Shown here one piece after another: positions 2,082 through 50,860 of a stretch of 64,000 nucleotides of DNA. The DNA is from Skermanella mucosa (lineage in GTDB: Bacteria; Pseudomonadota; Alphaproteobacteria; Azospirillales; Azospirillaceae), in the NCBI RefSeq assembly GCF_016765655.2, contig NZ_CP086106.1, positions 5,788,501 through 5,852,500 of the forward strand, read 5' to 3'. The notes beneath the pieces are model-generated. The model saw only the letters and a list, made by a program, of their open reading frames with translations. It was not told the DNA's origin and did no database searches. Made by a program: the position numbers and the translations under genes. Position 1 is the first letter of the stretch. Every line of letters starts with the position of its first letter.

Positions 2082-2097
2082 ACGCCGGATCCCCGTA

Positions 2098-2670
2098 ATG
2101 GCGAACTCGACATCATCCCTGGCGCTGATGCGCACGGGTTTCGAACGTTTCCTCGCCGCCATCGTGATCATCCTGCTGGTCGGCATGACGGCGGTCGTGT
2201 TCGGGGCGGTGGTGTTCCGCAAGCTGGGCGCCTCGCTGGTCTGGTATGACGAGGTCGCCTCGATCCTGCTGGCTTGGCTGACCTATTACGGGTCGGCGCT
2301 GGCGGCGCTGAAGCGGTCCCATATCGGCTTTCCCGGCCTGATCGCCGCCATGCGGCCGGCGCTGCGGCTGCCGGTCGTCATCCTGGCCGAGGTCATCGTC
2401 ATCGGCTTCTTCGTGCTGCTGGCCTGGGTCGGCATCGAGGTGCTGGGCTATCTGGAAGGCTTGACGCTGGTCAGCCTGCCGTGGGTGCCGGTCTGGTTCA
2501 CCCAGTCGGTGATCCCGATCGGGGCCGTGCTGTTCATCATCGCCGAGCTGATGAACCTGCCGGAGATCCTGCGGGAGGCGCGCGGGCACGGGCCGATCCA
2601 CGATCCCGAGATCCCGCCCGAACTGTTGAATCCCGACCTGATGAAAGATGCCCGGGGGGCCGAGCGATGA
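2098..2670 (+). CDS. dctQ: TRAP transporter small permease (DctQ family)
   Basis: This is the small membrane subunit, 190 residues with four predicted transmembrane segments: roughly residues 15-37, 50-68, 88-112 and 128-150. The second is preceded by the family's VWYDEVA pattern, followed by an ALAALKRSHIGF stretch typical of DctQ. It starts 16 bp after the binding protein stop. It overlaps the next gene by an ATGA junction, implying translational coupling. The C-terminal tail is cytoplasmic and charged. In TRAP systems DctQ pairs with DctM to form the sodium-coupled transporter. Confidence 0.92.
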   Translation: MANSTSSLALMRTGFERFLAAIVIILLVGMTAVVFGAVVFRKLGASLVWYDEVASILLAWLTYYGSALAALKRSHIGFPGLIAAMRPALRLPVVILAEVIVIGFFVLLAWVGIEVLGYLEGLTLVSLPWVPVWFTQSVIPIGAVLFIIAELMNLPEILREARGHGPIHDPEIPPELLNPDLMKDARGAER

Positions 2671-3950
2671 CCCTGCTGTACATGGCGGCCGGGCTGTTCG
2701 GCCTGGTCCTGATCAACGTGCCGATCGCGGTGGCGCTGGGCGTCGTGTCGGTGGTCGCGATGCTGCTGTCGTCGGGAACGGCGACGCTGCCCAACATGGC
2801 GATGGTGCTGTATGACGGCGCCACCAGCTTCCCGCTGCTGGCGATCCCGCTGTTCATCTTCGCGGGCGCCATCATGAACTCGGCCGGCATCTCGCGCCGG
2901 CTGATCGCCTTCGCCTCGGCGCTGGTCGGGTTCGTGCGCGGCGGGCTCGCCATGGTCAACGTGGCGACTTCCCTGTTCTTCGCGGAAATCTCGGGCTCGG
3001 CGGTGGCCGACGTGGCGGCGATCGGGTCGATCCTGATCCCGGCCATGAAGAAGCGCGGCTATCCCGCCACCTTCGCCGCCGCCATCACCTCGTCGGCTGC
3101 GACGCTGGCGGTGATCATCCCGCCGTCGATCCCGATGATCCTCTATGCGGTGATGTCGGGCAGTTCGGTGGTGCAGCTGTTCGTGGCCGGCATCGTGCCG
3201 GGCCTGCTGGGGGCGGCCGGGCTGATGGGCCTCGCCTACTGGTTCGCTGTCCGCCGCAACTACCCGGTGGAGGAGATGTTCCGGGTCAGCCGGGTGAAGG
3301 AAACCTTCCGCGAGGCGGTCTGGGCCTTCACCATGCCGATCATCATCCTGGGCGGCATCTTCGGCGGCTGGTTCACCGCGACGGAGGGCGCGGCCCTGGC
3401 CGTGGTGGCGGCGCTGTTCCTGGGGACCGTGGTCTACCGGGAGCTGGACCTGGCGCACCTGTACGACGCGATCCTGGAAGGCGGCATCCAGACCGCCGTG
3501 GTGATGCTTCTGGTCGCGACCTCGGCCCTGATGGGGACATATCTGACCGAGCAGCAGGTGCCGCAGCAGCTGGCCCAGGCGGTGGCCGACTTCACCAATA
3601 ACCGCTACGTCGTGCTGGCGCTTCTGAACGTCATCTTCCTGCTGGCCGGCCTGTTCCTGCACTCGGCCGCGGCGATCATCCTGATCGTTCCGATCGTCAT
3701 GCCGCTGGTCAACCTGGTCGGCATCGACCCGGTGCATTTCGGGATCATCGTAACGCTGAACCTGGGCATCGGCCAGCAGACGCCGCCGGTCGCCAGCGTG
3801 CTGGTGACGGCCTGCTCGATCGCCAAGGCCGACATCTGGGCCGTCAGCAAGGTGAACATCTACTTCATCGGCGTGCTGATGGCGGTGCTGCTGCTGTCCA
3901 CATACGTGCCGATCGTGCCGATGGGTCTGGTCGAGCTGTTCTACCGATAA
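2667..3950 (+). CDS. dctM: TRAP transporter large permease (DctM family)
   Basis: This is the large subunit carrying the transport path, 427 residues and almost entirely hydrophobic. Family landmarks are present: NVPIAVALG near the start, a FAGAIMNSAGISRRLIAFA stretch, the SGSAVADVAAIGSILIPAM loop and IIPPSIPMILYAV. The start is the ATG of an ATGA overlap with dctQ; upstream in-frame codons belong to the shadow of dctQ. With the preceding two genes it makes a complete TRAP system. The stop is followed 28 bp later by the crotonase gene. Confidence 0.94.
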   Translation: MTLLYMAAGLFGLVLINVPIAVALGVVSVVAMLLSSGTATLPNMAMVLYDGATSFPLLAIPLFIFAGAIMNSAGISRRLIAFASALVGFVRGGLAMVNVATSLFFAEISGSAVADVAAIGSILIPAMKKRGYPATFAAAITSSAATLAVIIPPSIPMILYAVMSGSSVVQLFVAGIVPGLLGAAGLMGLAYWFAVRRNYPVEEMFRVSRVKETFREAVWAFTMPIIILGGIFGGWFTATEGAALAVVAALFLGTVVYRELDLAHLYDAILEGGIQTAVVMLLVATSALMGTYLTEQQVPQQLAQAVADFTNNRYVVLALLNVIFLLAGLFLHSAAAIILIVPIVMPLVNLVGIDPVHFGIIVTLNLGIGQQTPPVASVLVTACSIAKADIWAVSKVNIYFIGVLMAVLLLSTYVPIVPMGLVELFYR

Positions 3951-3978
3951 GCATACTAAGCACACAGGGGGGAAACCC

Positions 3979-4758
3979 GTGGAAAACCTGATCCTGACCG
4001 AGCACCACGGCCCGGTCGTCACCGTCACCCTGAACCGGCCGGACAAGCTGAACGCCTTCACCAAGTCCATGTGGCAGCGCCTGGGCGAGGTGATGCGGCG
4101 GCTGTCGGACGACGATTCCGTCCGGTGCATCGTCTTGCGGGGCGCCGGGGACCGGGCGTTCAGCCCCGGCAACGACATCTCGGAGTTCGAGAACGAACGC
4201 TCCAACTCCGAGCAGGCCAGCGCCTATGGCAAGATCATCGCCGGCACGCTGGACGCGATGCGGACCTGCCGACACCCGACGGTGGCGCTGATCAAGGGGA
4301 TCTGCGTCGGCGGCGGGCTGGAGATCGCAGGAAGCTGCGACATCCGCATCTGCGGCACGTCGAGCCGGTTCGGCGCGCCCATCAACAAGCTGGGGCTGGT
4401 GATGGGCTATGCCGAGCTGGACGCGCTGATCGCCTTGGCCGGCCGCTCCACCGCGCTGGAGATCCTGCTGGAAGGCCGGATCTTCGGGGCGGCCGAGGCG
4501 AAGGACAAGGGCCTGGTCACCCGCGTGGTGGACGACGCCGAGGTGGACAAGGAGGCCATGGCGACCGCCCGGCGGATTTCCGAAGGCGCGCCGCTAGTCG
4601 CCCGCTGGCACAAGAAGTTCGCCCGGCGGCTGGCCGAGGGCACGCCGCTGAGCGAGGCGGAGATGGACGAGGGGTACGCCTGCTACGACACGGAGGATTT
4701 CCGGATCGGATACCGTGCCTTCCTCGACAAGGTGAAGCCAGAGTTCAAGGGACGCTGA
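3979..4758 (+). CDS. Enoyl-CoA hydratase/isomerase (crotonase) family protein
   Basis: A 259-residue crotonase-fold enzyme acting on acyl-CoA. The two oxyanion-hole segments are visible: GAGDRAFSPGNDISEF (about 55-70) and ICVGGGLEIAGSCD (about 108-121), the latter keeping the first catalytic glutamate position. At the second glutamate position, where hydratases usually read PEI, the sequence reads APINKLG, so the chemistry may not be simple hydration. An AGGGGGGAAACC stretch precedes an uncommon GTG start. The CoA-transferase gene follows after 3 bp, so the two probably act in one pathway. It could be a hydratase, isomerase or hydrolase. Confidence 0.88.
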   Translation: MENLILTEHHGPVVTVTLNRPDKLNAFTKSMWQRLGEVMRRLSDDDSVRCIVLRGAGDRAFSPGNDISEFENERSNSEQASAYGKIIAGTLDAMRTCRHPTVALIKGICVGGGLEIAGSCDIRICGTSSRFGAPINKLGLVMGYAELDALIALAGRSTALEILLEGRIFGAAEAKDKGLVTRVVDDAEVDKEAMATARRISEGAPLVARWHKKFARRLAEGTPLSEAEMDEGYACYDTEDFRIGYRAFLDKVKPEFKGR

Positions 4759-4761
4759 TTT

Positions 4762-5970
4762 ATGCTTGCTGATCGGACGGGGCCGCTGAAGGGGCTCAAG
4801 GTCGTCGAACTCGCCCATATCATGGCCGGCCCGGTGTGCGGGCTGTTCCTGGCGGACCTGGGGGCCGACGTCATCAAGGTGGAGAAGATCCCCGGCGGCG
4901 ACGACAGCCGCCGGTTCCTGCCGCCGGACATCGAGGGCGAGTCCGCCGCCTTCATGATGATGAACCGCAACAAGCGCGGCATCGCCATCGACCTGAAGAC
5001 GGCGGATGGCAAGGCGGCGCTGGAGCGGCTGCTGATGGACGCCGACGTGGTGATCGAGAACTACCGGCAGGACACCATGGACCGGCTGGGGCTGGGATAC
5101 GAGACTTTGCGGGAGCGGAACCCCAGGCTGATCTACTGCGCGGTGTCGGGCTTCGGGCGGACGGGCCCCTATGCCGACCGGGGCGGCTTCGACCTGATCG
5201 CCCAGGGCATGAGCGGGATCATGAGCATCACCGGGGAGGCGCCGGGCCGGCCGCCGGTGAAGGTGGGCGCACCCCTGACGGACATCACGGCGGGGATCCT
5301 GGCGGCGCTGGGGGTGGCCAGCGCGGTCGTGGCGAGGGCTTCGACGGGCAGGGGGCAACTGGTCGATACCTCGCTGTTCGAGGCGGGGATCGTCCACACC
5401 TACTGGCAGTCGGCGATCTGCTTCGCGACCGGCGCGTCGCCGGGTCCGATGGGGTCGGCCCATCCGCTGAACGCGCCGTACCAGGCGTTCGAGACGGCGG
5501 ACGGCTGGATCAACGTGGGCGCCGCCAACCAGACCAACTGGCTGAAGCTGGTCGACGTGCTGGAGGCGCGGGAGCTGCTGGACGATCCGCGGTTCGCCGA
5601 CAACCGGCGGCGGATGAACAACCTGGAGGATCTGGTGGAGGCGCTGACCGTCCATTTCCGCCAGCGGACCACGGCGGAGTGGCTGGAGCGCCTGAACGCC
5701 GCCGGCGTGCCGGCCGGGCCGGTGCTGTCGATCGCCGAGATGCACGCCGACCCGCAGACGCTGGCGCGGGAAATGGTGGTCGAGGTGGACCACCCGGTCG
5801 CCGGGGCGGTCAAGGCGCTGGGGCTGCCGATCAAGCTGTCCGACACGCCGGGCGGGGTCTTCGGGCCGGCACCGCGGTTCGGGGAGCATACGGCGGAGGT
5901 GCTGGCGGAGCACGGGTTCGGCGAGGAGGAGATCCGGCGGATGACGGAGGCGGGGGCGGTCGGGGGTTGA
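4762..5970 (+). CDS. Class III CoA-transferase (CaiB/BaiF family)
   Basis: A 402-residue family III CoA-transferase, which moves CoA between carboxylic acids. The N-terminal pattern LKVVELAHIMAGPVCGLFLAD and LGADVIKVEKIPGGDDSR is diagnostic. The catalytic aspartate fits D174 in PLTDITAG, followed by the STGRGQLVDTSLFEA segment. The length is usual for the family. It ends the TRAP operon, and a copy of the dispersed CCACAGATG repeat lies 11 bp after the stop. In context it likely activates the imported acid so that the crotonase can act; carnitine/crotonobetaine, formyl/oxalyl and itaconate-type transferases share this fold, so the substrate is open. Confidence 0.92.
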   Translation: MLADRTGPLKGLKVVELAHIMAGPVCGLFLADLGADVIKVEKIPGGDDSRRFLPPDIEGESAAFMMMNRNKRGIAIDLKTADGKAALERLLMDADVVIENYRQDTMDRLGLGYETLRERNPRLIYCAVSGFGRTGPYADRGGFDLIAQGMSGIMSITGEAPGRPPVKVGAPLTDITAGILAALGVASAVVARASTGRGQLVDTSLFEAGIVHTYWQSAICFATGASPGPMGSAHPLNAPYQAFETADGWINVGAANQTNWLKLVDVLEARELLDDPRFADNRRRMNNLEDLVEALTVHFRQRTTAEWLERLNAAGVPAGPVLSIAEMHADPQTLAREMVVEVDHPVAGAVKALGLPIKLSDTPGGVFGPAPRFGEHTAEVLAEHGFGEEEIRRMTEAGAVGG

Positions 5971-5980
5971 AAGGGGGTTT

Positions 5981-6010
5981 GGCCACAGATGAACGCAGAT
6001 GGACACAGAT
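5981..6010 (+). repeat. CCACAGATG dispersed repeat, copy A
   Basis: GGCCACAGATGAACGCAGAT followed by GGACACAGAT, forward orientation. It lies between the convergent ends of the CoA-transferase and the GxxExxY gene. It faces copy B (6394-6422), so the GxxExxY gene is bracketed by inverted copies. Confidence 0.85.
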
Positions 6011-6015
6011 GGGCG

Positions 6016-6396
6016 CTACGCGCCCTGTAGAATGATGCGTTGATACTGGATACGGGGCTTGCCGAAATTAATGAGCAGGGCGATGGGTATTTTGCCTGCC
6101 TTCAGGTAATTGAGGGTCTGGGCGACATGGGCGGGCGACAGGGTTTCGGTACATTTCAGCTCGATGATCATCCTGTCTTCGACCATGATATCCGCGAAGT
6201 AGCGGCCTACCTCGTCTCCTTTATAGAATACTGGGAAAGGCACTTCCTCACGTGCATGAATCTCCCGGCGGGTCAGTTCCGCGACCAGTGCCCGCCGGTA
6301 GACTATTTCAAGAAACCCATGGCCAAGAATGTTCGAAACTTCAAAAGCCGCACCAAGAACCGCATGCGACAGACGATCCCGCTCATCGATACCCAT
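6016..6396 (-). CDS. GxxExxY family protein
   Basis: A 126-residue protein of the GxxExxY family, named for the motif seen here as GFLEIVY near residues 26-32. Further hallmarks are AVLGAAFEVSNILG, the VGRYFADIMVEDRMIIELK stretch and the C-terminal YLKAGKIPIALLINFG. The D..V...IIELK arrangement recalls PD-(D/E)XK nuclease folds, but no activity is established as far as I know. The start codon lies inside a copy of the dispersed CCACAGATG repeat, and another copy follows the stop. That suggests gene and repeats travelled together. Confidence 0.88.
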   Translation of the reverse strand: MGIDERDRLSHAVLGAAFEVSNILGHGFLEIVYRRALVAELTRREIHAREEVPFPVFYKGDEVGRYFADIMVEDRMIIELKCTETLSPAHVAQTLNYLKAGKIPIALLINFGKPRIQYQRIILQGA

Positions 6397-6422
6397 CTGA
6401 GCCCATCTGCGTGCATCTGTGG
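6394..6422 (-). repeat. CCACAGATG dispersed repeat, copy B, overlapping the GxxExxY start
   Basis: On the minus strand it reads CCACAGATGCACGCAGATG and then GGCTCAGATG. The last ATG is the start codon of the GxxExxY gene. It is inverted with respect to copy A on the other side of that gene. Confidence 0.85.
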
Positions 6423-6439
6423 ATAAATAATCCTGGAAC

Positions 6440-6922
6440 TTACGCAGGCAAGTGATGCAGCGGCAATGCGGTCTCGTAGCGCACCTGTTTCAACGCGAAG
6501 CTGGATTTGATGCTGGAGACGCCGGGTATTCGGGTCAGGTGGGTCTTGAGGAAGTGTTCGTAGGCCGCGAGGTCGGGGACGACTACGCGGAGCAGGTAAT
6601 CTGCTTCTCCCGTCATCAGGTAACATTCCAGCACCTCCGGCCGATGCATGATCGCGGCCTCGAAGGCGTCGAGGCGTTCTTCGATCTGCTTTTCCAGCGT
6701 GACGCTGACGAACACGTTTACAGGGAGGTCCACGGTCGAGGGATCGACCAGCGCCACGTAGGTGCGGATCACTCCGCTCTCCTCCAGCGCCTTGACCCGG
6801 CGGAGGCAGGGCGAGGGCGACAGGCCGATGGCGGAGGCAAGGTCGTTGTTGGCGATCCGGCCGTCCTTCTGGAGGCGGGCAAGGATCTTCCGGTCGATGG
6901 CGTCGAGGCTGGGTTTTGGCAT
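6440..6922 (-). CDS. Lrp/AsnC family transcriptional regulator
   Basis: A 160-residue feast/famine regulator. An N-terminal winged helix (LDAIDRKILARLQKDG, then DLASAIGLSPSPCLRRVKAL) is followed by the RAM ligand-binding domain, with VFVSVTLEK and ECYLMTGEADYLLRVVV as its landmarks. The start chosen gives the usual MPKxxLDxIDRKIL beginning; an in-frame start 25 codons upstream would add a non-conserved extension. It is divergent from the dehydrogenase gene at 7057, and two 31-bp-spaced repeats lie across its start and the shared region. It probably responds to an amino acid and controls both genes. Confidence 0.92.
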   Translation of the reverse strand: MPKPSLDAIDRKILARLQKDGRIANNDLASAIGLSPSPCLRRVKALEESGVIRTYVALVDPSTVDLPVNVFVSVTLEKQIEERLDAFEAAIMHRPEVLECYLMTGEADYLLRVVVPDLAAYEHFLKTHLTRIPGVSSIKSSFALKQVRYETALPLHHLPA

Positions 6923-6974
6923 TGGATGGCGCAAACTTATGCATTTTTGGCATGGGATGCCGTAAGCATGGCAT
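6918..6974. promoter_or_regulatory. Tandem 26-27 bp direct repeats, candidate Lrp-type operator
   Basis: Copy 1 (6918-6944) begins GGCATTGGATGGCGCAAAC and ends ATGCAT. Copy 2 (6949-6974) begins GGCATGGGATGCCGTAAGC and ends ATGGCAT. The period of 31 bp is close to three helical turns, suiting an oligomeric Lrp-type protein binding one face of the DNA. The first copy covers the regulator's start codon, which would give autoregulation. Confidence 0.55.
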
Positions 6975-7056
6975 CGGGCAGCGCAGTTCGCAACCATTTG
7001 CCCGGGCGCCGGTGTTATCGTGGTGGCCTGTCATCATCCTGGGAAGCGAAGCGGAA

Positions 7057-9483
7057 ATGGTTGACTCAACGACCATCGAACACGGTGCCGATACCGTCGA
7101 ATGCCTGCGCGAGCTGGAGCGCAAGATCCTTTGGCTGGCGTCCTGGACGATCCACAACGCCAACCATGTCCGGCCCAACCTGGACGGGCTGAAGGTAGGC
7201 GGGCACCAAGCTTCGTCGGCGTCGCTGGCGACGATCATGACGGCGCTGTATTTCGCGGCCCTGCGGCCGGAGGACCGGGTCGCGGTCAAGCCGCACGCCA
7301 GCCCGATCTTCCACGCTATCCAGTACCTGATGGGCAACCAGACGCGCGAAAAGCTGGAAAATTTCCGGGGCTACAAGGGTGCGCAGAGCTATCCGTCGCG
7401 GACCAAGGACGTGGACGACGTCGATTTCTCGACCGGGTCGGTGGGCATGGGCGTCGCCCAGACGCTGTTCGCCTCGCTGGTCCAGGATTACCTGAAGGCC
7501 AGGAACTGGGCTCCCTCGATCCCGGAGGGGCGCATGGTCGCCCTGATCGGCGATGCCGAGATGGATGAGGGCAATATCTTCGAGGCGCTGCTGGAAGGCT
7601 GGAAGCACGGCCTGCGCAACACCTGGTGGATCGTCGACTACAACAGGCAGAGCCTGGACGCTGTCATCCGGGAAGGTCTGTGGGAGCGGCTGGAAGGCAT
7701 CTTCCGCAACTTCGGCTGGGACGTCGTGATCCTGAAGCACGGCCGGCTGATGCGGGAGGCGTTCGCCGAGGAGGGCGGCGACCGGCTGCGGGAGTGGATC
7801 GACACCTGCCCGAACCAGCTCTATTCGGCCCTGACCTTCCAAGGCGGTGCGGCGTGGCGCCGGCGTCTGATGGACGACCTGGGCGACCAGGGACCCGTGT
7901 CCCGGCTGATCGAGCGGCGCTCCGACGGGGAGCTGGCTGACCTGATGGGCAACCTGGGCGGCCATGACCTGCCGTCCCTGCTGGAAGCCTTCGAGGCGGC
8001 GCGGCGGCATGACCGGCCGGTGTGCTTCATCGCCTATACGGTCAAGGGCTTCGGGCTGCCGCTGGCGGGGCACAAGGACAACCATGCGGGGCTTCTGACG
8101 CCCGCGCAGATGGAGGCGTTCCGCGACGGCCTGAAGATCCGGCCGGGGCACGAGTGGGACCGCTTCGAGGGGCTGGGGATCGGGGAGGACCGGCTGTCGG
8201 CGTTCCTGGGCACGGTGCCGTTCTTCGCCAAAGGGCCGCGGCGCTATTCGGCGCCGGTGGTTCCGGTTCCGGAGGCTTTGGAAGTTCCGAAGCAGAAGGC
8301 GCTGTCCACCCAGGCGGGCTTCGGGCTGATCATGAACGAGCTGGGGCGGACCAAGGAGGGGCTGGCGGAGCGGATCGTGACGACGGCGCCGGACGTGACG
8401 GTTTCGACCAACCTGGGGTCGTGGGTGAACCGGCGCGGGCTGTTCGCCAAGGAGGCCATGGCCGACCTGTTCAAGAAGGAACGCATTCCGTCCACATACA
8501 GCTGGGATTTCTCGCCCGACGGGCAGCATTTCGAGCTGGGCATCGCCGAGGCGAACCTGTTCACCATGCTGTCGGCGCTGGGGCTGTCCCATTCGGTGTT
8601 CGGGGAGCGGCTGCTGCCGATCGGAACGGTGTACGACCCCTTCATCTATCGCGGCGCCGACGCGATGAACTATGCCTGCTACCAGGATGCCCGGTTCATG
8701 CTGGTGGCGACGCCGGCCGGCGTCACGCTGGCGCCGGAAGGCGGCGCGCACCAGTCGATCGGGACGCCGCTGGTCGGCATGGCGCAGGATGGACTGGCCT
8801 ATTTCGAGCCGGCTTTCGTGGACGAGCTGGGCGTCATCATGCGCTGGGCCTTCGACTACATGCAGCGCAACGGCGAGGGCCAGCCGAACGAGCGGAACTG
8901 GCTGAGGGACGAGACCGGCGGCGCCGTCTATCTGCGCCTGTCGTCGCGCACGCTGGAGCAGCCGGGCCGGGACATGGCGCCGGAGCTTCGCCAGGACATC
9001 ATCGACGGCGCCTACTGGATGCGGCGGCCGGGGCCGAACTGCCAAGTGGTGGTGGCCTATACCGGCGCGGTGGCGCCCGAGGCGATCGAGGCGGTCGGGC
9101 TGATGGCCGAGGACCGGCGCGACGTGGGGCTGCTCGCCGTCACCTCGGCCGACCGGCTGCACGGCGGCTGGAGCGCCGCCCAACGGGCGCGGGAGCGCGG
9201 GCTGGTGCATGCCCGGTCGCATATCGAGCGGCTGCTGGACGGCGTGCCGTCCAACTGCGGCATGGTGACGGTGATCGACGGGCATCCCGCGACGCTGGGC
9301 TGGTTGGGATCGGTCCACGGCCACCGGACGCGGGCGCTGGGCGTCGAGCATTTCGGCCAGACCGGCACCATCGCCGACCTGTACCGGCATTTCGGCATCG
9401 ACGCCCAGGGCATCGTGCTGGCGGCCCAGGCTACCGCGGCCGGCCGGCCGATCCGGCATCTCCATACGATCGGGGAGCGCTGA
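7057..9483 (+). CDS. AceE-like 2-oxoacid dehydrogenase E1 / transketolase-like enzyme
   Basis: An 808-residue thiamine-diphosphate enzyme related to homodimeric pyruvate dehydrogenase E1 (AceE, about 887 residues). The ThDP/Mg site is GDAEMDEGN (about 167-175), with the matching asparagine in DYNRQSLD. The transketolase-like pyrimidine domain follows (AEANLFTMLSALGLS; APEGGAHQSIGTP), then a C-terminal domain with HGGWSAAQRARERG. The start has GGGAAGCGAAGCGGAA just upstream. No E2 or E3 gene is adjacent. The divergent Lrp regulator recalls the methionine-degradation mdeR-mdeAB arrangement, whose MdeB is an E1 homologue acting on 2-oxobutyrate, so that substrate is possible. The 3' end overlaps the convergent neighbour by 53 bp. 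Confidence 0.88.
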   Translation: MVDSTTIEHGADTVECLRELERKILWLASWTIHNANHVRPNLDGLKVGGHQASSASLATIMTALYFAALRPEDRVAVKPHASPIFHAIQYLMGNQTREKLENFRGYKGAQSYPSRTKDVDDVDFSTGSVGMGVAQTLFASLVQDYLKARNWAPSIPEGRMVALIGDAEMDEGNIFEALLEGWKHGLRNTWWIVDYNRQSLDAVIREGLWERLEGIFRNFGWDVVILKHGRLMREAFAEEGGDRLREWIDTCPNQLYSALTFQGGAAWRRRLMDDLGDQGPVSRLIERRSDGELADLMGNLGGHDLPSLLEAFEAARRHDRPVCFIAYTVKGFGLPLAGHKDNHAGLLTPAQMEAFRDGLKIRPGHEWDRFEGLGIGEDRLSAFLGTVPFFAKGPRRYSAPVVPVPEALEVPKQKALSTQAGFGLIMNELGRTKEGLAERIVTTAPDVTVSTNLGSWVNRRGLFAKEAMADLFKKERIPSTYSWDFSPDGQHFELGIAEANLFTMLSALGLSHSVFGERLLPIGTVYDPFIYRGADAMNYACYQDARFMLVATPAGVTLAPEGGAHQSIGTPLVGMAQDGLAYFEPAFVDELGVIMRWAFDYMQRNGEGQPNERNWLRDETGGAVYLRLSSRTLEQPGRDMAPELRQDIIDGAYWMRRPGPNCQVVVAYTGAVAPEAIEAVGLMAEDRRDVGLLAVTSADRLHGGWSAAQRARERGLVHARSHIERLLDGVPSNCGMVTVIDGHPATLGWLGSVHGHRTRALGVEHFGQTGTIADLYRHFGIDAQGIVLAAQATAAGRPIRHLHTIGER

Positions 9484-10468
9484 GGGGCGCTGCGGGGAAG
9501 AGGTCCGGGGTTTCGGCCAGCAGGCGGGCGAAACGCGCCGCGGCCGGCACCATGCCGAAGACCAGCGGCGGCGGAATGACCCCGGTCCTGCCCGCCGCGA
9601 CAGCGGGGAGATTGCGCCAGAGAGGGCTGGAGGCCAGGGTGGGCCGGGCGTCCGGCGGGACCGGATCGATCACCAGCAGGCTGGCGTCGGGATGCACGGA
9701 CAGGCGGTCGATGGGGACGGTGGCGAACCCCCAGGCGTTGGTCGGCCCCGTCCAGGCGCTGCGCAGGCCGCTGCTTTCCAGGACGGCTTCCGCCAAGCTG
9801 CCTTTGCCATAGACGCGGACATGCCTCGCGTCCATGAAGCTGACGGCCAGGACGGGAGGGGGGTTGGCTGCTTCCAAGGTTACCTGGGCGGCGGCGAAGG
9901 CGGCTTGGGCGCTGGCGATCAGCGCTTCGCCGGCAGCTTCGCGGTGCAGCAGGCGGGCGAGCCTTCGGGTAGCCTCGACCGCGTTCTCCCAGGGCCGGTG
10001 GTCGGAGGTGTAGGTGGGGAGCGACAGCGTCGGGGCGATCCGCTCCAGGTGGGGCCGCAGGCTTTCATGCTCGCCGACGATCAGGATCAAGTCGGGAGCG
10101 AGGGTGCTGAGCAGTTCCAGGTTCGGTTCCAGGCGGAGACCGAGATCCACGACGCCGGGGTCGAGGGGTGGACCGCCGACCCAGGTGTCGTAGACCTTGG
10201 CCTCGGGCACGGCGAGGGGCCGGACGCCCAGCGCGATCAGGGTGTCGGTGAGGCCCCAGTCCAGCGCGACGACGCGGCGAGGGGGCGGCGGCGTGTCGCC
10301 CGCCGCGGCGGGCGTGGCCGCGAGGATGGCCAGGACGACCAGGGGCGCCAGGAGGCTTCCGAGGATTCGGAGGCGGAGGGCCGGCGGAGGTGAAGGCGAC
10401 CTTACCTGTCCGTCGGCACCCTTCATCGATCGTTCCAAGCCGGCATCGAGCTTCTCCCTGCCTGTCAT
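9431..10468 (-). CDS. Siderophore/iron ABC transporter substrate-binding protein (FhuD/FecB type)
   Basis: A 345-residue periplasmic binding protein of the iron-siderophore type. A hydrophobic signal (LLAPLVVLAILAATPAAAG, about 40-58) precedes RRVVALDWGLTDTLIALGV, the usual opening strand. PDLILIVGEHESLRPHLERIAPT follows the family pattern. An alternative start 14 codons in would shorten the tail before the signal. No permease or ATPase is adjacent, so it must work with components elsewhere. A Fur-like box lies 40 bp upstream, fitting iron-repressed expression. Its end overlaps the convergent dehydrogenase gene. Confidence 0.85.
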   Translation of the reverse strand: MTGREKLDAGLERSMKGADGQVRSPSPPPALRLRILGSLLAPLVVLAILAATPAAAGDTPPPPRRVVALDWGLTDTLIALGVRPLAVPEAKVYDTWVGGPPLDPGVVDLGLRLEPNLELLSTLAPDLILIVGEHESLRPHLERIAPTLSLPTYTSDHRPWENAVEATRRLARLLHREAAGEALIASAQAAFAAAQVTLEAANPPPVLAVSFMDARHVRVYGKGSLAEAVLESSGLRSAWTGPTNAWGFATVPIDRLSVHPDASLLVIDPVPPDARPTLASSPLWRNLPAVAAGRTGVIPPPLVFGMVPAAARFARLLAETPDLFPAAPLSAPRSYGDAGSAGRPR

Positions 10469-10507
10469 TGTTGGCCGGGCGAACTCTTAAGGTCCGAACG
10501 ATGTCGA

Positions 10508-10528
10508 TGCAACTCATTATCATTTGCA
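10508..10528 (-). promoter_or_regulatory. Fur-type box
   Basis: On the minus strand the site reads TGCAAATGATAATGAGTTGC plus A. It is a near-palindrome centred on ATAAT with outer TGCAA/TTGCA arms, matching the NATGATAAT-type Fur consensus. It lies 40 bp upstream of the binding-protein start, where it could cover the promoter. Confidence 0.75.
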
Positions 10529-10559
10529 TTGCCGGGTTTATCCCGGAGGGATGCCCGCA

Positions 10560-10588
10560 CGCCGCGGGAGCCGGAGCTCGCCGCGGCG
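10560..10588 (-). terminator. Hairpin downstream of glucose dehydrogenase
   Basis: On the minus strand, CGCCGCG..GAGC and GCTC.CGCGGCG arms close on a TCCG loop, 16 bp after the gcd stop. There is no U-tract, so it may pause or protect the transcript rather than terminate by itself. Confidence 0.4.
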
Positions 10589-10604
10589 GGAGGTCAGGGC
10601 CGCG

Positions 10605-13079
10605 CTATTGCCTGGGTATCGCGTAGGCGATGACGCTGTCGCCGGCCTTGGTGCCCAGCGAGCCGTGGCCGCCGGCGGCGACCAGCAGGTATTGCCGGCC
10701 GTCCTCGCCCAGATAAGTCATGGGCGTCGCCTGCCCGCCGGCCGGCAGGCGGCTTTCCCAGAGCTGCTCGCCGGTGGTGACGTCGTAGCCGCGCACGTAA
10801 TAATCGATCGTGCCGGACAGGAAGGCGACGCCGCCGGCCGTCATCATCGGGCCGCCCAGGCTGGGCACGCCCATCCTGAAGGGCAGCGGCAGGGGCGAGG
10901 CGTCGCGGACGGTGCCGTTCTTGTGCATCCAGATGATCTCGCCGGTGGTCAGGTCGGCCGCCGAGACATAGCCCCAGGGGGGAGCCTGGCAGGGCAGCCC
11001 GAGGACGGAGACGAACGGGGCCAGCTTGACCGCGAAGGGGGCGCCGAAATTCTCGTTGAGAGCCGGCAGGCTGTATTCCGGCCGGTTCTCGCCCTGGACA
11101 TAGAGGGTGGTATCGTCCTCGCGCGGGATCAGCTGGGAGACGAAGGCGAGATAGGCCGGGGTCGTGAAGGCGATCTGGCGCCGGGGATCGACCGCGATGC
11201 TGCCCCAGTTGAACACGCCGAAATTGCCGGGGTAGATGAGGGAGCCTTCAGTGGAGGGCGGGGTGTAGCGGCCCTCGTAGCGCAGCCTGTGGAACTGGAT
11301 GCGGCAGGCGAGCTGATCGAACAGGGTGGCTCCCCACATGTCCCGGCCGCTCAGCGGAGGCGGGTCGTAGGACAGCGCCGAGACCGGCTGGGTCGGGGCG
11401 GTGTGGTCGCCCTCGGCGGCGCCTTGCGGCGCCGGCTTCTCGGTCACCGGAAGGATCGGCTCGCCGGTGCGGCGGTCGAGGACGAAGAGCTCGCCCTGCT
11501 TGGTCGGCTGGACCAGGGCCGGCACCGTCTGCCCGCCGACGGTCAGGTCGATCAGGCTGGGCTGCGACGGCACGTCGTAGTCCCACAGGTCGTGGTGGAC
11601 GGTCTGGAAGTTCCAGCGCACCTCTCCGGTCGCGAGGTCGAGGGCGACGACGGAGGACGAGAACCGCTCCACCGCCGGGCTGCGGTTGCCGCCCCACTGG
11701 TCGGGCGGCTGGTTGCCCAGGGGGATGTAGACCATGCCCAAATCCTCGTCCACGGCGGAGATCGACCAGGAATTGGGCGAGTTGGGCGTGTAGGTCTCGC
11801 CCGGAGGGGGCGGCGCCGTGTCGTCCGGATCGCCGGGGTCCCAGGCCCAGACGAGGTCACCGGTGTTCACGTCGAAGGCCCGGATCACGCCTGAGGCCTC
11901 GTTGACCGAGACATTGTCCAGGACGGTGCCGCCCACGATGATGAGGTCCCGGGTGACCACGACCGGGGAGGTCGAGTAGTAGGAGCCCGGCTTGACGTTG
12001 GGCATGTTGCGCCAGAGGTCGATCTGGCCGGTGCCGCCGCCGAACGCGGTGCAGATCGCGCCGTCCTCGGGGTTGAGGGCGATCAGCCTGCCGTCCGCGG
12101 TCGGCATGAACAGGCGGGCGGGGCAGTTGTCGGCGGTTTCCGGCGCGGTATTGGCCGCGACCGGCATGTCGGGGACCGGTGAGTCCGCCGGCTCCGCCGG
12201 GGCGGGCGAGGCGGGAGCCGGGGCGGCCGTTTCCTCGGAAGCCGGGTGGTAGGACAGGCCACGGCAGGTCAGGTGCTGGAGCGCCAGGTCGTCGCGGATC
12301 TCCGGATCGTAGCGCCAGATCTCCTCGCCGGTGGTGGCGTTCAGCGCGATGACGAACTGGTGCGGCGTGCAGAGATACAGGCGGTTGTCGATCTTCAGCG
12401 GCGTGACCTGGAAGGTGGTTTCCACCGGGTCGCCGGGCTGGCCGCGCAGGTCGCCGGTGTGGTAGGTCCAGGCCTCCTGGAGTTGGGAGACGTTGGCCGG
12501 GGTGATCTGGTCGAGCGGGGAATAGCGCTGGCCGTAGCCTGTGCGGCCGTAGGCATGCCATTCGCCGGGCGGGACGTCGGGCTTGCTGGTGGGTCCGTTC
12601 GCCGGGGCTTCGGCGCGCGGTCCCGGGGCGGTTCCCTCGATCCGGTGGGGGTCGGCGAACATGGAAGCTCCCGCCACCACGACGGCCAGGGCGAGTGCCG
12701 CCGCCAGCGGCAGGGAAGCGGCCCCGGAACGGCCGTCCAGCGGGCGGGTGACCCAGGGCAGCAGCAGGAGCAAGCCGACCACGACGAAGACCGCGCCGCG
12801 CGCCGCCAGCGGCCACCAGTCGAACCCGACCTCCCACAGGGACCAGGCCAGCGTGCCCAGGAGCAGCAGGGCATAGACCCAGAGCGCCGCGGGGTTCCTC
12901 CTGAACAGGAGATAGCCGGTGATCAGGAGGACCACTCCGGCGATGGCGTAGTACCAGGAGCCGCCCAGGCCGATCAGCCAGACGCCTCCGCCCGCCAGGG
13001 CGAGGCCCATGAGAATTAGAAGTATGGCCATCGCCACGGGGACGAACGGCCGCCCCCTGCCCTGCCTGTCGCGCTGCAT
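10605..13079 (-). CDS. gcd: Membrane-bound quinoprotein glucose dehydrogenase (PQQ-dependent)
   Basis: An 824-residue membrane enzyme oxidising glucose to gluconolactone in the periplasm and passing electrons to ubiquinone. The first about 140 residues hold five transmembrane segments (for example MAILLILMGLALAGGGVWLI and AVFVVVGLLLLLPWV). The catalytic PQQ beta-propeller follows, beginning near GEWHAYGRTGYGQRYSPLDQ. Repeated W-motif blades are visible (TGEEIWRYDPE, TGDLVWAWDPG, TGEVRWNFQTVHHDLWD, TGEQLWESRLP). The length is close to the known about 800-residue Gcd. PQQ synthesis genes are not in the window. A repetitive Ala/Pro/Ser-rich insertion sits between two blades (near residues 275-310). 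Confidence 0.95.
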   Translation of the reverse strand: MQRDRQGRGRPFVPVAMAILLILMGLALAGGGVWLIGLGGSWYYAIAGVVLLITGYLLFRRNPAALWVYALLLLGTLAWSLWEVGFDWWPLAARGAVFVVVGLLLLLPWVTRPLDGRSGAASLPLAAALALAVVVAGASMFADPHRIEGTAPGPRAEAPANGPTSKPDVPPGEWHAYGRTGYGQRYSPLDQITPANVSQLQEAWTYHTGDLRGQPGDPVETTFQVTPLKIDNRLYLCTPHQFVIALNATTGEEIWRYDPEIRDDLALQHLTCRGLSYHPASEETAAPAPASPAPAEPADSPVPDMPVAANTAPETADNCPARLFMPTADGRLIALNPEDGAICTAFGGGTGQIDLWRNMPNVKPGSYYSTSPVVVTRDLIIVGGTVLDNVSVNEASGVIRAFDVNTGDLVWAWDPGDPDDTAPPPPGETYTPNSPNSWSISAVDEDLGMVYIPLGNQPPDQWGGNRSPAVERFSSSVVALDLATGEVRWNFQTVHHDLWDYDVPSQPSLIDLTVGGQTVPALVQPTKQGELFVLDRRTGEPILPVTEKPAPQGAAEGDHTAPTQPVSALSYDPPPLSGRDMWGATLFDQLACRIQFHRLRYEGRYTPPSTEGSLIYPGNFGVFNWGSIAVDPRRQIAFTTPAYLAFVSQLIPREDDTTLYVQGENRPEYSLPALNENFGAPFAVKLAPFVSVLGLPCQAPPWGYVSAADLTTGEIIWMHKNGTVRDASPLPLPFRMGVPSLGGPMMTAGGVAFLSGTIDYYVRGYDVTTGEQLWESRLPAGGQATPMTYLGEDGRQYLLVAAGGHGSLGTKAGDSVIAYAIPRQ

Positions 13080-46948: not shown

Positions 46949-47184
46949 GGGGCGCAGGCGGTCCACCCACCGGGCGTCCCGACGGCCATCCCGCCGATCG
47001 TAATATCACTTTTATTTAAAATATCGCGTAAAGGCCTACCGGCTCTGGCCCTTTGCACAAGAGGGCATTTGATTTCCTGACGCTATGATCCGGTCCGCGA
47101 AGACATTCCTTGCCTATTCTGAAGGAAAGACTCGCAACCCATCAAGGGAATGCCGGAACAATTACTTTAGAAAAAGTAAATAGC

Positions 47185-48306
47185 ATGAAACTCTGTCCTG
47201 AAATGCTGCTTCGAGCGCTTGATGTCAGCGAGCTTGCCCATACCGTCAGCTCCCTCAAGGGCGACATGCCCCTGCTCTATGCCAACCAGGCCTTCCTGGA
47301 TATGACGGGATATGGCCGGGACGAGGTGGTCGGCCGGAACTGCAGGTTCCTCCAGGGACCGCTGACCGAAGTTTCCGCGCTTTCCCGGATCCGCGACGGC
47401 ATCGCGGCCCGAGAGACCGTCCAGGTGAACCTGGTCAACTACCGCAAGGACGGAAGCACCTTCGTCAATCATCTCTACCTGGCCCCGGTGCCGGACGCCT
47501 CGGGCACGCCCATCGCCTACATGGGCATCCAGTCGAACGTCACCCCGCTGCACCAGCGGCTTCGGCTGGACCATGAGCGGGAGAAGCTGGCGGCGCTGGG
47601 CCGCCTGACCGCCGGGATCAGCCACGAGATCAAGAACGCCCTCCAGCCGATCCGGCTGATGGCGGAGATCCTGGAGGATTGGGAGAGCCTGCGCCCGGAC
47701 GACATCCGCCGGTCCCTGGCCACGCTTCGGACCAACCTGGACATCGCCCTCCAACTGACCACCGACGTCCTGGGCGTGGCCCGGAATCCGTCCCATCGGG
47801 GCGCGGACGCCGTCGCCGCGACGGTGCTGGCCGCCGAGACAAGGCGGTTTGTGGAGGGGATCGTGCCCGACACGGTCCGGCTCCGGATCGTTGACATCCC
47901 GTCCGGCGGCACACCGGGCTCGGTGACGATAACGGTCCGGCATTTCCTCCAGGTGATCGGGAACCTGGTCACCAACGCCGTCGACGCCATGCAGGGGCGT
48001 GGCGACCTGACGATCCGCTGGGGCCGCCGTGGCCTGTTACCCGGCGAGGCGGAGGGCCTGGGCCTCCTTCCCGGCGACTATCTGCGGATCGACATCCTGG
48101 ATACCGGATGCGGCGTCGAGGAACGGCACCTGGGCGAACTGTTCGAGACCTTCTTCACGACCAAGCCGCGCGACGAGGGGACCGGACTGGGACTGGCGGT
48201 CAGCCAGTCGATCGTGCGCGAGGCCGGCGGAACCATCACCGCCAGCAGCCAGGCTCCCGGCGGCAGCACTTTCTCGATCCACCTTCCAACGATCCACGAG
48301 GCATAG
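47185..48306 (+). CDS. LOV-domain blue-light sensor histidine kinase
   Basis: 373 residues and soluble. The LOV domain (about 10-125) has the photoactive cysteine motif GRNCRFLQG with Cys53, and the flavin-contacting residues in NYRKDG (Asn85), FVNHL (Asn95) and GIQSN (Gln116). The histidine kinase follows: ISHEIKNALQPIRL with His147, N-box NLVTNAVDAM, DTGCGVEE, GTGLGLAVSQ. All positions needed for flavin adduct formation and for phosphorylation are present. The ATG chosen has a poor ribosome site; a TTG 75 bp upstream is an alternative. The receiver gene follows after 9 bp and the chemoreceptor after that. Confidence 0.93.
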   Translation: MKLCPEMLLRALDVSELAHTVSSLKGDMPLLYANQAFLDMTGYGRDEVVGRNCRFLQGPLTEVSALSRIRDGIAARETVQVNLVNYRKDGSTFVNHLYLAPVPDASGTPIAYMGIQSNVTPLHQRLRLDHEREKLAALGRLTAGISHEIKNALQPIRLMAEILEDWESLRPDDIRRSLATLRTNLDIALQLTTDVLGVARNPSHRGADAVAATVLAAETRRFVEGIVPDTVRLRIVDIPSGGTPGSVTITVRHFLQVIGNLVTNAVDAMQGRGDLTIRWGRRGLLPGEAEGLGLLPGDYLRIDILDTGCGVEERHLGELFETFFTTKPRDEGTGLGLAVSQSIVREAGGTITASSQAPGGSTFSIHLPTIHEA

Positions 48307-48315
48307 GAACATTCC

Positions 48316-48690
48316 ATGGCACACATACTGCTGATCGAGGACATGCCGGGGGTGCGGGACGCGCTCGGCGTAGTCCTGACCATCGCCGGCCACCGGATCG
48401 ACACGGCGGGCGACGGCGAGGAGGGCTTGGCCAAGATCAGGGCCAATACCTACGACATGGTCGTCTGCGACATCGTCATGCCCAGGAAGGACGGCACCTC
48501 GGTGATCATCGAGGCCAAGGCAGCCAGGCCGGCCCTGCCGATCCTGGCGGTGTCCGGGGGAGCCGGCGGCGTGACCGCCCGGCAGGCGCTGCTGGTGGCC
48601 TCCGCCAGGGCGGACCGCACCCTGGAAAAACCCTTCTCCCGCGAGGATCTGCTGACCGCGGTCCGCGAAATCCTTTCCTCTCCCGCCTGA
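48316..48690 (+). CDS. Single-domain response regulator
   Basis: 124 residues, a receiver domain alone. The acidic pair is in LLIEDMP (Glu8, Asp9), the phospho-acceptor is Asp52 in VVCDIVMP, and the conserved lysine is in TLEKPFS. No output domain is present, so it acts by protein contact, like CheY or as a phosphate shuttle. AGGAAC precedes the ATG. Its place between a LOV kinase and a chemoreceptor, with gaps of 9 and 12 bp, makes it the likely target of the kinase. Confidence 0.93.
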   Translation: MAHILLIEDMPGVRDALGVVLTIAGHRIDTAGDGEEGLAKIRANTYDMVVCDIVMPRKDGTSVIIEAKAARPALPILAVSGGAGGVTARQALLVASARADRTLEKPFSREDLLTAVREILSSPA

Positions 48691-48702
48691 ACGAGCGCCA
48701 TC

Positions 48703-50778
48703 ATGCCCAACTTCTTCCGCAGCCTGAAGATCGGTTCCCGAATCTACGTCCTGACCGCCATGTCGCTGGCCTTCCTGTGCCTGGTCGCGGCGATCAGCTT
48801 CACCAGCATGGTCCGGATCGGCCATGAGCTGACCCAGGTCGCCGACCGCAGCATGCCGATCAGCGCCCTGCTGCGCCAGATCACCACCCACCAGCTGGAA
48901 CAGGCGGTCCTGTTCGAACGGATGCTGCGGGAGGGCGAGATCAGCGTCGCGGAGAACCGGCTGGACCAGGTCGCCGCCGAGTTCAGCCGGCTGTCGCACC
49001 AGATGGACGAGGAGATCGTCCGGCTCGAACGGATGATCGGGGAAGCGCGGGCGGCCTCCGACGGGGCCGACATGAGGAGTTTCGAGGAGCAGGTCAGGCA
49101 GATCGAGGAACGCCATGCCCGGTACGAGAAGGGCGCCGAGGCGATCCTGCAGCGCATCCGGGAGTCCGGCACCCGCACCGTGCCGACGACCGTCACCGCG
49201 CTGATGACGCTCGCGGAGGACCTGGAAAAGGAACAGGAGGCGCTCGACCATGCCATCATCGACCTGATGGAGAATGTCTCCGCATCGACCGAAATGGCGG
49301 TCCGGCGCGCCCGGGACGACGAGGCGCGGGCGACGATGCTGATCGCGAGCCTGTCGGGCATCATCCTGATCCTGGCCGGCGCCCTGTCGATCCTGATCGC
49401 GCGCAGCATCACCAAGCCGGTGAGCAAGCTGACGAACGCCATGAAGGACCTCGCCGGCGGCAACCTGGAGACCGAGATCGTCACGCCCTATTTCCGCGAC
49501 GAGGTCCACGAGATGTCGGCGACCATGAAGGTGTTCCGCGCCGACATGGCCAAGGCACGCGAACTGGAAACCCTGCAGCGGCGGGAGCGCGCCAAGCGGC
49601 AGCGCCAGGGCGAGGAACTGAGCCAGCTCGTCGGCATCTTCGGCGCCAGCATCGGCGCCGTGTTCAACCGGATCGGCTCGTCATCCAAGGCGATGGTCGA
49701 TGAGGCGACGACCATGACGCGCCAGAGCGGCGACACCCTGAGCATGGCCGACCAGGTCGCCGGCGAGGCGAGCCACTCCTCGGAAAGCGCCGGCACGCTC
49801 GCCAGCGCGTCGGAGGAGATGCTGGTCAGCGCGCAGGAGATCGGCCGGCAGATCGCCAGGTCGGCCGACGTGGTGAACAGGGCCGTCGCGGCCGCCGACG
49901 CCGCCCGCGACGAGGTCGGCCGGCTTCAGGAGACGGCCGTGCAGATCGAGCAGGTCGTCGAGCTGATCCGGAACATCTCGAAACAGACCAACCTGCTGGC
50001 GCTCAACGCCACGATCGAGGCGAGCCGCGCCGGCGACGCCGGGAAGGGGTTCGCGGTGGTCGCGGCGGAGGTGAAGCAGCTGGCGACCCAGACCACGCGG
50101 GCCACCGAGGAGATCGGCGCCAGGATCGGCGGCGTCCGGCAGGTCTCGACCTCCTCCGCGGGCGCGATCACGGAGATCGCCGAGCTGATCGGGGAGGTCA
50201 ACAGCTACATCTCCGGCATCGTGTCGGCCGTGCAGGAGCAGGATGCGACCCTGAACGAGATGGTCCGCAACATCGACTTCGTCGCGCGGAGTTCCGGCAC
50301 GGTCACCGACAGCGTGGGACGGATCAAGGGACAGGCGGTGACGGTGGGCTCCAGCGCCGCGGGCGTCAGCCGCTTCGCCACCGAGCTGAGGGACGAGTCT
50401 TCCAGCCTGAGCCAGGAAATGGAAACCTTCCTGAAGGCCATGCGCAACACCAACGCCGACGACGACACCTTCACGACCTACCGGATCGATCGGGCCGCGG
50501 AGGCTGCCCTCGGCACCGGCACGTGGCGTGGACGGGTGGAGGAGATCTCGAGCGCCCACGCCGTCCTATCCCCGGCGCTGCCGGGTCCCACCGGAGAGCT
50601 GATCAGGATCGGCATCGACGGGATAGCCGGCGACCTGCGGGCTCGGGTGGCCGTGACCGAAGGCTGCCGGACCACCATCCAGTTCCCGCTCGACCTGGAG
50701 CATCTCCAGCGGATGCGGACGCATGTCGCGGCGCTGGGGCTGGGCGGGGAGCCGGGAAGCGGAAGCCGGGCGGCATGA
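48703..50778 (+). CDS. Methyl-accepting chemotaxis protein with C-terminal PilZ-like domain
   Basis: 691 residues. TM1 (about 14-34), a helical sensor region (about 35-205), TM2 (about 207-230), a HAMP domain ([18 protein letters not shown]), the methyl-accepting signalling domain with hairpin-type [23 protein letters not shown], and a C-terminal beta-rich domain (about 590-680). That last domain resembles PilZ, as in Azospirillum Tlp1. However, the c-di-GMP motifs RxxxR and (D/N)xSxxG read RIDRAAE and EISSAHA here, so ligand binding is doubtful. It is the last gene of the LOV kinase-receiver operon. Confidence 0.91.
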
Positions 50779-50834: not shown

Positions 50835-50860
50835 GGGAGGAAGACCGCCGTCTTCCTCCC
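50835..50860. terminator. Bidirectional hairpin terminator
   Basis: A perfect 11-bp stem GGGAGGAAGAC/GTCTTCCTCCC with a CGCC loop lies between the convergent chemoreceptor and cold-shock genes. On the minus strand it runs into TTCTTCTTTG, so it fits best as the cold-shock gene terminator. Confidence 0.75.

Follow-up and report, generated by a model that had tools for sequence, protein, structure and literature searches.

A predicted blue-light kinase, a lone receiver and a chemoreceptor encoded side by side in Skermanella: a candidate route from light to receptor signalling

How soil bacteria convert blue light into behaviour is mostly an open question, and few bacterial LOV kinases have, to our knowledge, a known downstream target. 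LovK and LovR of Caulobacter and its relatives form a gene pair, whose kinase we take to be of the HWE/HisKA2 type and for which we know of no chemoreceptor partner. In the stretch of DNA analysed here, 64,000 nucleotides of Skermanella mucosa contig NZ_CP086106.1 (assembly GCF_016765655.2, positions 5,788,501 to 5,852,500; hereafter the window, in whose own numbering coordinates are given), a LOV histidine kinase, a single-domain response regulator and a transmembrane chemoreceptor, or methyl-accepting chemotaxis protein (MCP), are encoded one behind the other at 47185-50778. We tentatively read this triad as one signalling unit, in which blue light would set the kinase, the receiver would be phosphorylated and would in turn act on the co-encoded chemoreceptor, and we rate that reading at somewhat below an even chance. 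That the three genes stay together in related soil bacteria and in one distant relative hints, short of proof, that they carry light information into the system by which the cell steers or senses.

Several published systems invite comparison. LovK and LovR have been described as a LOV kinase with a single-domain receiver (PMC4438053, PMC5964349), and effects of LOV kinases on motility have been reviewed (PMC4844311). A precedent for contact between receiver and chemoreceptor comes from Pseudomonas aeruginosa, where two-hybrid tests showed the REC domain of PA2572 to bind PA2573, the MCP encoded next to it (PMC3411652). For R. centenum, whose chemotaxis and phototaxis are under Che1 control, the genome description names a LOV kinase, RC1_0351, undisrupted at that time, and in a different section a potential operon, RC1_0352-0355 (small protein, CheY-like protein, MCP and FixJ homologue), leaving the two unconnected in those sections (PMC2890560). 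Locus L126 shows LOV kinase and MCP operon side by side, if genome G006, taken as R. centenum by inference, is indeed that organism.

The triad and its conservation in Skermanella

The kinase gene (47185-48306; 373 aa) is followed after 9 bp (48307-48315) by the receiver gene (48316-48690; 124 aa), and this after 12 bp (48691-48702) by the chemoreceptor gene (48703-50778; 691 aa), all on the + strand; the three gene types, assigned from open reading frames (ORFs) and Pfam, adjoin as in clusters of the PA2571-2573 kind. A check of the ORFs bears out the frames, coordinates, strand and gaps given in a preliminary description of this DNA, and the kinase start at 47185 agrees with that of the orthologue in genome G002. 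The triad is more than a chance grouping, because its genes are kept adjacent in four of five Skermanella genomes, occupy two different sites there and are grouped again in G402, an alphaproteobacterium of another family. The preliminary description had proposed searching other genomes for this gene order; with the search carried out, synteny specific to one strain is rejected.

Within the genus, all three genes keep the same order in the window's own genome and in G002, G004 (taken as S. stibiiresistens SB22 by inference) and G003, with gaps of 9/12, 9/12, 8/31 and 6/11 bp. Identities of kinase, receiver and chemoreceptor are 95%, 95% and 92-93% in G002, 70%, 85% and 77% in G004, and 56%, 80% and 68% in G003, and the three genes are under purifying selection when compared with G002, with ratios of nonsynonymous to synonymous substitution rates (dN/dS) of 0.14, 0.17 and 0.24 in the same order. 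In its own genome, G002 and G004 the triad is flanked by one and the same pair, a hybrid kinase and an NtrC-type regulator (flanking genes lacking a Pfam call were named by eye throughout). In G003 this usual site is empty (L191) and the triad stands instead beside genes resembling, by eye, those of an ABC transporter (L125); the three genes therefore changed place together. The fifth genome, G001, has the closest hybrid kinase (91%) and no triad: at its triad site (L190 4542-5665) stand an RTX-repeat ORF of 340 aa and a 56-bp stretch of kinase gene (47/56 identical, E 6e-11), a scrap that we read as a deletion scar. The genes have thus moved as a unit and been lost as a unit. The photosynthetic reaction-centre family PF00124 is matched twice in each of the five genomes, and such genes have been reported in three Skermanella species, but with no photosynthesis-based growth (PMC11767975), so that light is plausibly relevant to the genus.

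Upstream of the triad, no sigma-70-like promoter was found where 0.5 would be expected by chance, a result that is weakly informative in this bacterial group. A promoter or operator shared among triads is rejected, since the sequence 5' of the kinase is unconserved among them. An inverted repeat, TTACTTT-AGAA-AAAGTAA, lies at 47162-47179, just 5' of the kinase start, and is likewise unconserved in other triads. Between the chemoreceptor and a gene that by eye is cold-shock-like, a GC-rich inverted repeat at 50835-50860, which has a T-rich tail when read on the - strand, is a possible terminator; this stretch is also kept in G001.

Kinase, receiver and chemoreceptor

The LOV domain of the soluble kinase (aa 1-125, 47185-47559; Pfam PAS_9 27-120) carries the adduct cysteine, Cys53 (codon 47341-47343), in a GXNCRFLQ-type motif (GRNCRFLQG), together with the flavin contacts Asn85, Asn95 and Gln116, and all four residues are invariant in the five triad kinases, down to 40% identity. 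The dimerisation/phosphoacceptor and ATPase domains that follow (47596-48291; Pfam HisKA 138-200, HATPase_c 252-369) include His147 (codon 47623-47625) in a HEIKN box, which retains the Glu and Asn of an ExxN-type phosphatase motif; these four LOV residues and His147 all stand where the preliminary description had placed them. The best match among solved structures is 4gcz, a chimera of a blue-light photoreceptor and FixL. A LovK-type identity is rejected: the HisKA match is to PF00512 (42.1 bits), Pfam lists no HWE match, and the blue-light kinase model NF052306 matches residues 24-153 only, at 121 of 450 bits. PRK13557 matches over 348 residues at 214.6 bits, below its NCBIfam cut-off of 631 bits. 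Fourteen plasmid records hold a match to the kinase, every one below 60% identity. Elsewhere in the host genome, a second LOV kinase occupies a 597-aa open frame at G000:C1:3856490-3857551, with a receiver gene adjoining.

For the receiver, Pfam gives Response_reg alone (73.5 bits), in agreement with its earlier description as a receiver without an output domain. It retains E8, D9, D52 (codon 48469-48471), S80 and K105, the last four being invariant in the receivers of all five triads. The position of CheY Tyr106, at which we would expect an aromatic residue in a motor-binding CheY switch, is occupied by the non-aromatic T102, and a motor-type CheY identity is rejected on that ground. No relative of the receiver among solved structures was found at E<=1e-12. 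At two positions that we take to belong to the docking surface, and that were picked after the alignments had been viewed, kinase R157 and receiver D15 co-occur in all five triads, and T157 with L15 or F15 in all six comparable Azospirillum-type pairs (a seventh, in G072, is not comparable). At the level of sequence, such co-occurrence fits a cognate kinase-receiver pair.

The chemoreceptor begins with membrane helices and a predicted periplasmic helical-bundle sensor (48703-49392; 4HB_MCP_1 below cut-off, AlphaFold), followed by a HAMP domain (49393-49539; 37.6 bits, cut-off 25) and a signalling hairpin region (49903-50328; MCPsignal 401-542, 94.9 bits, cut-off 34.6) that is canonical by Pfam. 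The best AlphaFold model of the sensor region has four long helices with a mean predicted local distance difference test score (pLDDT) of 76.6, the five models ranging down to 47.5, and its Foldseek matches include the Vc1313 and PcaY sensor domains and designed bundles, none at E<=0.001. The preliminary description, which spoke of a full chemoreceptor, overlooked a C-terminal domain at about residues 583-691 (50449-50775). Over this tail Pfam finds nothing significant, and no PilZ match by sequence. The AlphaFold model (9-row alignment) has six strands and a helix, with a mean pLDDT of 77.9, and in Foldseek it has 22 matches in the PDB at E<=0.001, most of them to PilZ proteins or to complexes containing one (top match 5y4r; fourth 5xly, CheR1-MapZ); as modelled, the tail is a PilZ fold.

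PilZ domains that bind cyclic di-GMP (c-di-GMP) carry the motifs RxxxR and [DN]xSxxG. Both are lost from the window tail, where EISSAHAV replaces the second, and a tail functional in c-di-GMP binding is rejected as far as sequence can tell. Among homologues, the motifs are intact in G263 (REYAR, DLSAGG), worn in G019 and G023, and gone in Skermanella and G402, whose tails largely have the signature EISxAHxVxSP in common. The G019 tail reaches the Pfam PilZ cut-off (23.7 against 22.5 bits), and that of G023 has no PilZ match in Pfam. Measured against G002, no part of the chemoreceptor changes faster than the tail, whose nonsynonymous rate (dN) is 0.166, compared with 0.030 for the HAMP-signalling part.

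Relatives in other genomes

The window kinase by itself finds matches at E<=1e-30 in 56 of 145 relatives, and among the matches listed none outside the genus exceeds 42% identity. A profile built from four triad kinases matches 11 of 385 genomes of the class at E<=1e-45; outside Skermanella, G402 is alone in having its match in a short frame, of 378 aa, and apart from the window's own gene the others lie in frames of at least 526 aa. Across the phylum, 17 of 398 genomes match at E<=1e-60, and only the window's own gene does so in a frame below 525 aa; among the four genomes searched from the order of G402, G402 alone matches. This 1.6-Mb draft has one orthologue of each gene on one 11.9-kb contig, with a full-length chemoreceptor 6 bp beyond the receiver and the kinase convergent with the pair; identities to the window are 40% for the kinase, 41% for the receiver and 39-40% for the chemoreceptor. 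The triad kinases of Skermanella and G402 form one clade, with a Shimodaira-Hasegawa-like approximate likelihood ratio test (SH-aLRT) support of 99 (63 rows), and so do the triad chemoreceptors (SH-aLRT 100, 44 rows).

Kinases and tailed chemoreceptors adjoin in other forms as well. G180 has a tailed chemoreceptor about 370 bp beyond a longer LOV kinase, and in G019 and G023 a kinase and a chemoreceptor with a PilZ-like tail are 11 bp apart (L131, L128); the latter kinase, in which the adduct Cys is replaced and the two Asn and the Gln are kept, appears from its sequence to be a light sensor that has lost its photochemistry. The chemoreceptors of these three genomes group together (99, chemoreceptor tree). 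G263 (L254 2942-6638) encodes on one strand its chemoreceptor with intact PilZ motifs, a receiver and a kinase that has no LOV motif and, by eye, has membrane segments, and may represent a form of the module without LOV. Azospirillum-type genomes and R. centenum have a related LOV-kinase/receiver pair beside a different chemoreceptor with its own CheY, followed in six of seven loci by stressosome-like genes (called by Pfam in L127 only, by size and sequence start in the others). The order in L127 (G056, 995-11324) is LuxR-type regulator, MCP, CheY, small ORF, LOV kinase, receiver, RsbR, RsbS, RsbT, SpoIIE/HATPase protein, receiver, CheX and PAS hybrid kinase, and similar clusters are found in L126 (G006), L129 and L130. 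Between CheY and the LOV kinase of L127, a 121-aa protein (8583-8948) has no Pfam match and resembles, in start and length, ORFs at the same place in other clusters of this type. In L195 (1559-9310, G096) a PAS-chemoreceptor lies upstream of a LOV-PAS kinase, beside an ORF that by eye is KaiC-type-ATPase-like.

An MCP lies within 1 kb at 15 of 41 LOV loci (12 of them on the same strand) and is absent from that distance at 26, the 41 being no random sample, since they include four chosen for similarity to the window kinase. Pattern searches alone give 8 of 20 places within the family and 3 of 17 in the class outside it; the former are the examined part of 25 places found (left out were G072 C55, G003 C44, C222, G002 C1 at 3.58 Mb and G004 C11), the latter are all those found, some on short contigs, and the exact LOV pattern misses variants such as NCRMLQG, NCRFLHG and NCRVLQG. 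Chance would place an MCP near about 1% of loci at the density of the host genome (51 MCP-family matches in 7.84 Mb).

A receptor search centred on G402 speaks against a wider pattern. Among the matches listed, seven reach model position 650 or beyond, and six of them were examined (the other being G021 C30): the receptors of G402, G180 and G263 adjoin a clear kinase match, two of these already known from the kinase search, those of G187 and G021 C31 have no neighbouring kinase match, and that of G290 has a weak one (61.9 bits) on the opposite strand. We consider unlikely, though worth stating, a general scheme in which the two-component pair serves a single chemoreceptor as its own soluble input. 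Under the control of light, the phospho-receiver would then be an intracellular ligand of the co-encoded MCP, through a PilZ-fold tail that has lost c-di-GMP binding. Different lineages would fit such modules with different kinase sensors, namely LOV in Skermanella, G402 and G180, LOV lacking the Cys in G019 and G023, and a membrane kinase in G263; the LOV triad would be the variant that reads light in a more widespread plug-in for chemoreceptor arrays.

Proposed pathway, rival explanations and known systems

If the triad is one signalling unit, as we tentatively prefer, blue light, and possibly redox state too, would change the flavin-binding LOV domain and with it the kinase/phosphatase balance of the HisKA kinase; light sensing by this domain is strongly predicted from its residues. 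Phosphorylation of the adjacent receiver by the kinase, judged from sequence, is likely to follow, and the phospho-receiver would act on the chemoreceptor from the cytoplasmic side, most likely at the signalling domain or the PilZ-fold tail. What the analysis establishes is the gene content, the residues, the conservation of the three genes as a unit and the predicted fold of the tail; flavin binding, photochemistry, the kinase-receiver pairing and the receiver-chemoreceptor step are steps that we infer, the last of them by analogy. The message of the chemoreceptor to CheA would thereby be altered, a periplasmic stimulus being combined with a light signal delivered in trans; output through CheA is likely, because the signalling domain is canonical and the host genome has three matches to the CheA-family H-kinase_dim. 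The preliminary description had envisaged a path from blue light to receptor signalling that bypasses the main CheA: a three-gene unit linking a predicted light kinase to receptor signalling is supported, but the bypass is not, given that domain, those three matches and a receiver whose T102 is unlike motor-binding CheY.

It must be acknowledged that several observations weigh against this pathway. The light response, flavin binding and phosphotransfer are predictions here, and in P. aeruginosa the neighbour kinase PA2571 showed no contact with PA2572 (PMC3411652). The triad is dispensable, because the close relative G001 has lost it. Rapid change does not look like what a tight interface in the tail would undergo, though the EISxAHxVxSP signature is largely common to G402. 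As to G402 itself, both trees carry a flag for odd composition on its rows and the kinase tree one for a long branch as well, misbinning of its single triad contig in a draft genome is possible, and its convergent kinase falls outside the receiver-chemoreceptor transcription unit.

The triad might instead be a co-regulated module whose phospho-receiver acts elsewhere, as a CheA phosphate sink, at the motor or on another regulator, whilst the chemoreceptor feeds an independent stimulus to the same behaviour, which we hold to be possible, if on the unlikely side. Single-domain receivers may have targets encoded at other loci. MrrA has been described as a hub (PMC5964349), CheS3, a kinase other than CheA, phosphorylates CheY3 in the Che-like che3 cascade of R. 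centenum (PMC3868531), and the Azospirillum-type LOV-kinase/receiver pair adjoins a chemoreceptor provided with its own CheY. By itself, however, action elsewhere leaves the closeness of receiver and chemoreceptor (6-31 bp in Skermanella and G402) unexplained, and CheY-type switches have an aromatic residue that is missing from the receiver. A flow in the reverse direction, with the chemoreceptor sensing a ligand and tuning the kinase/receiver pair towards a non-taxis output by the receiver, seems improbable: chemoreceptors and Che-like cascades can serve such outputs, as PA2573 (PMC3411652) and the che3 control of cysts (PMC3868531) illustrate, and the kinase itself lacks a transmembrane sensor (judged by eye and from Pfam), but it does have its own sensor domain and has no CheW-like domain by Pfam.

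The Cys-less kinases of G019 and G023 keep two Asn and the Gln beside a PilZ-tailed chemoreceptor, so that the kinase-chemoreceptor pairing exists without photochemistry, and LovK is described in a paper title as integrating light and redox (cited in PMC6798134). Both would suit a LOV domain that is mainly a flavin redox or oxygen sensor and not a light sensor, to which we nevertheless assign a low probability given the retention of Cys53 in every triad kinase. Chance adjacency of genes with no shared function is already disfavoured and very improbable; with 51 MCP matches in the genome signalling genes will sometimes adjoin MCPs, and most LOV loci surveyed have none nearby, but the change of site as a unit, the presence across families and the matching clades in two trees all speak against it. 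Should the triad prove to be one signalling unit, it would show how ordinary two-component kinases can deliver input to chemoreceptor arrays, and it would offer a natural part for the light control of taxis in laboratory strains; as three neighbouring genes encode the sensor, the phosphate carrier and the receptor, the whole path can be tested by a handful of deletions.

A literature search, beyond whose reach most subscription papers lay, found no paper on a LOV-kinase/receiver/chemoreceptor operon. The suggestion of the preliminary description that this layout is not a described system accordingly holds for the LOV triad itself, but kinase/regulator/MCP neighbours are in print (PA2571-PA2573, PMC3411652), and the R. 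centenum locus tags imply that a LOV kinase adjoins an MCP operon there. The LOV kinases of the PRK13557 family (Pseudomonas, Xanthomonas; chimera 4gcz) likewise join a LOV sensor to HisKA and HATPase_c, whereas the triad kinase falls below the family cut-off, is short, has a separate receiver and belongs to a clade of its own. LovK/LovR share with the triad the combination of LOV kinase and single-domain receiver and differ in kinase type, the window kinase being HisKA and far short of the NF052306 threshold. PA2571-PA2572-PA2573 are a neighbouring kinase, REC protein and MCP, as in the triad, but PA2572 carries a YN-GYP domain and each gene is predicted to form a unit of its own (PMC3411652). 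RC1_0351-0355 of R. centenum and the Azospirillum-type clusters have a related LOV-kinase/receiver pair (receiver 41-46%) beside MCP and CheY; unlike in the triad, the MCP is a different, short one and lies upstream with CheY, and L127 differs further in its RsbR, RsbS, RsbT, SpoIIE-type, CheX and hybrid-kinase genes. A C-terminal PilZ fold on an MCP is known from Azospirillum Tlp1 and Aer and Azorhizobium Cbp1 (PMC6406031, PMC6454048), whereas the tail in the window has lost the c-di-GMP motifs and comes with a companion LOV kinase and receiver. Photoreceptors that act, or have been proposed to act, on a separate chemoreceptor are found in the photoactive yellow protein encoded beside chemoreceptors in Leptospira (PMC9664959) and in sensory rhodopsin-Htr (PMC5812497); these are direct photoreceptor-receptor pairs, whereas the triad places a kinase and a receiver in between.

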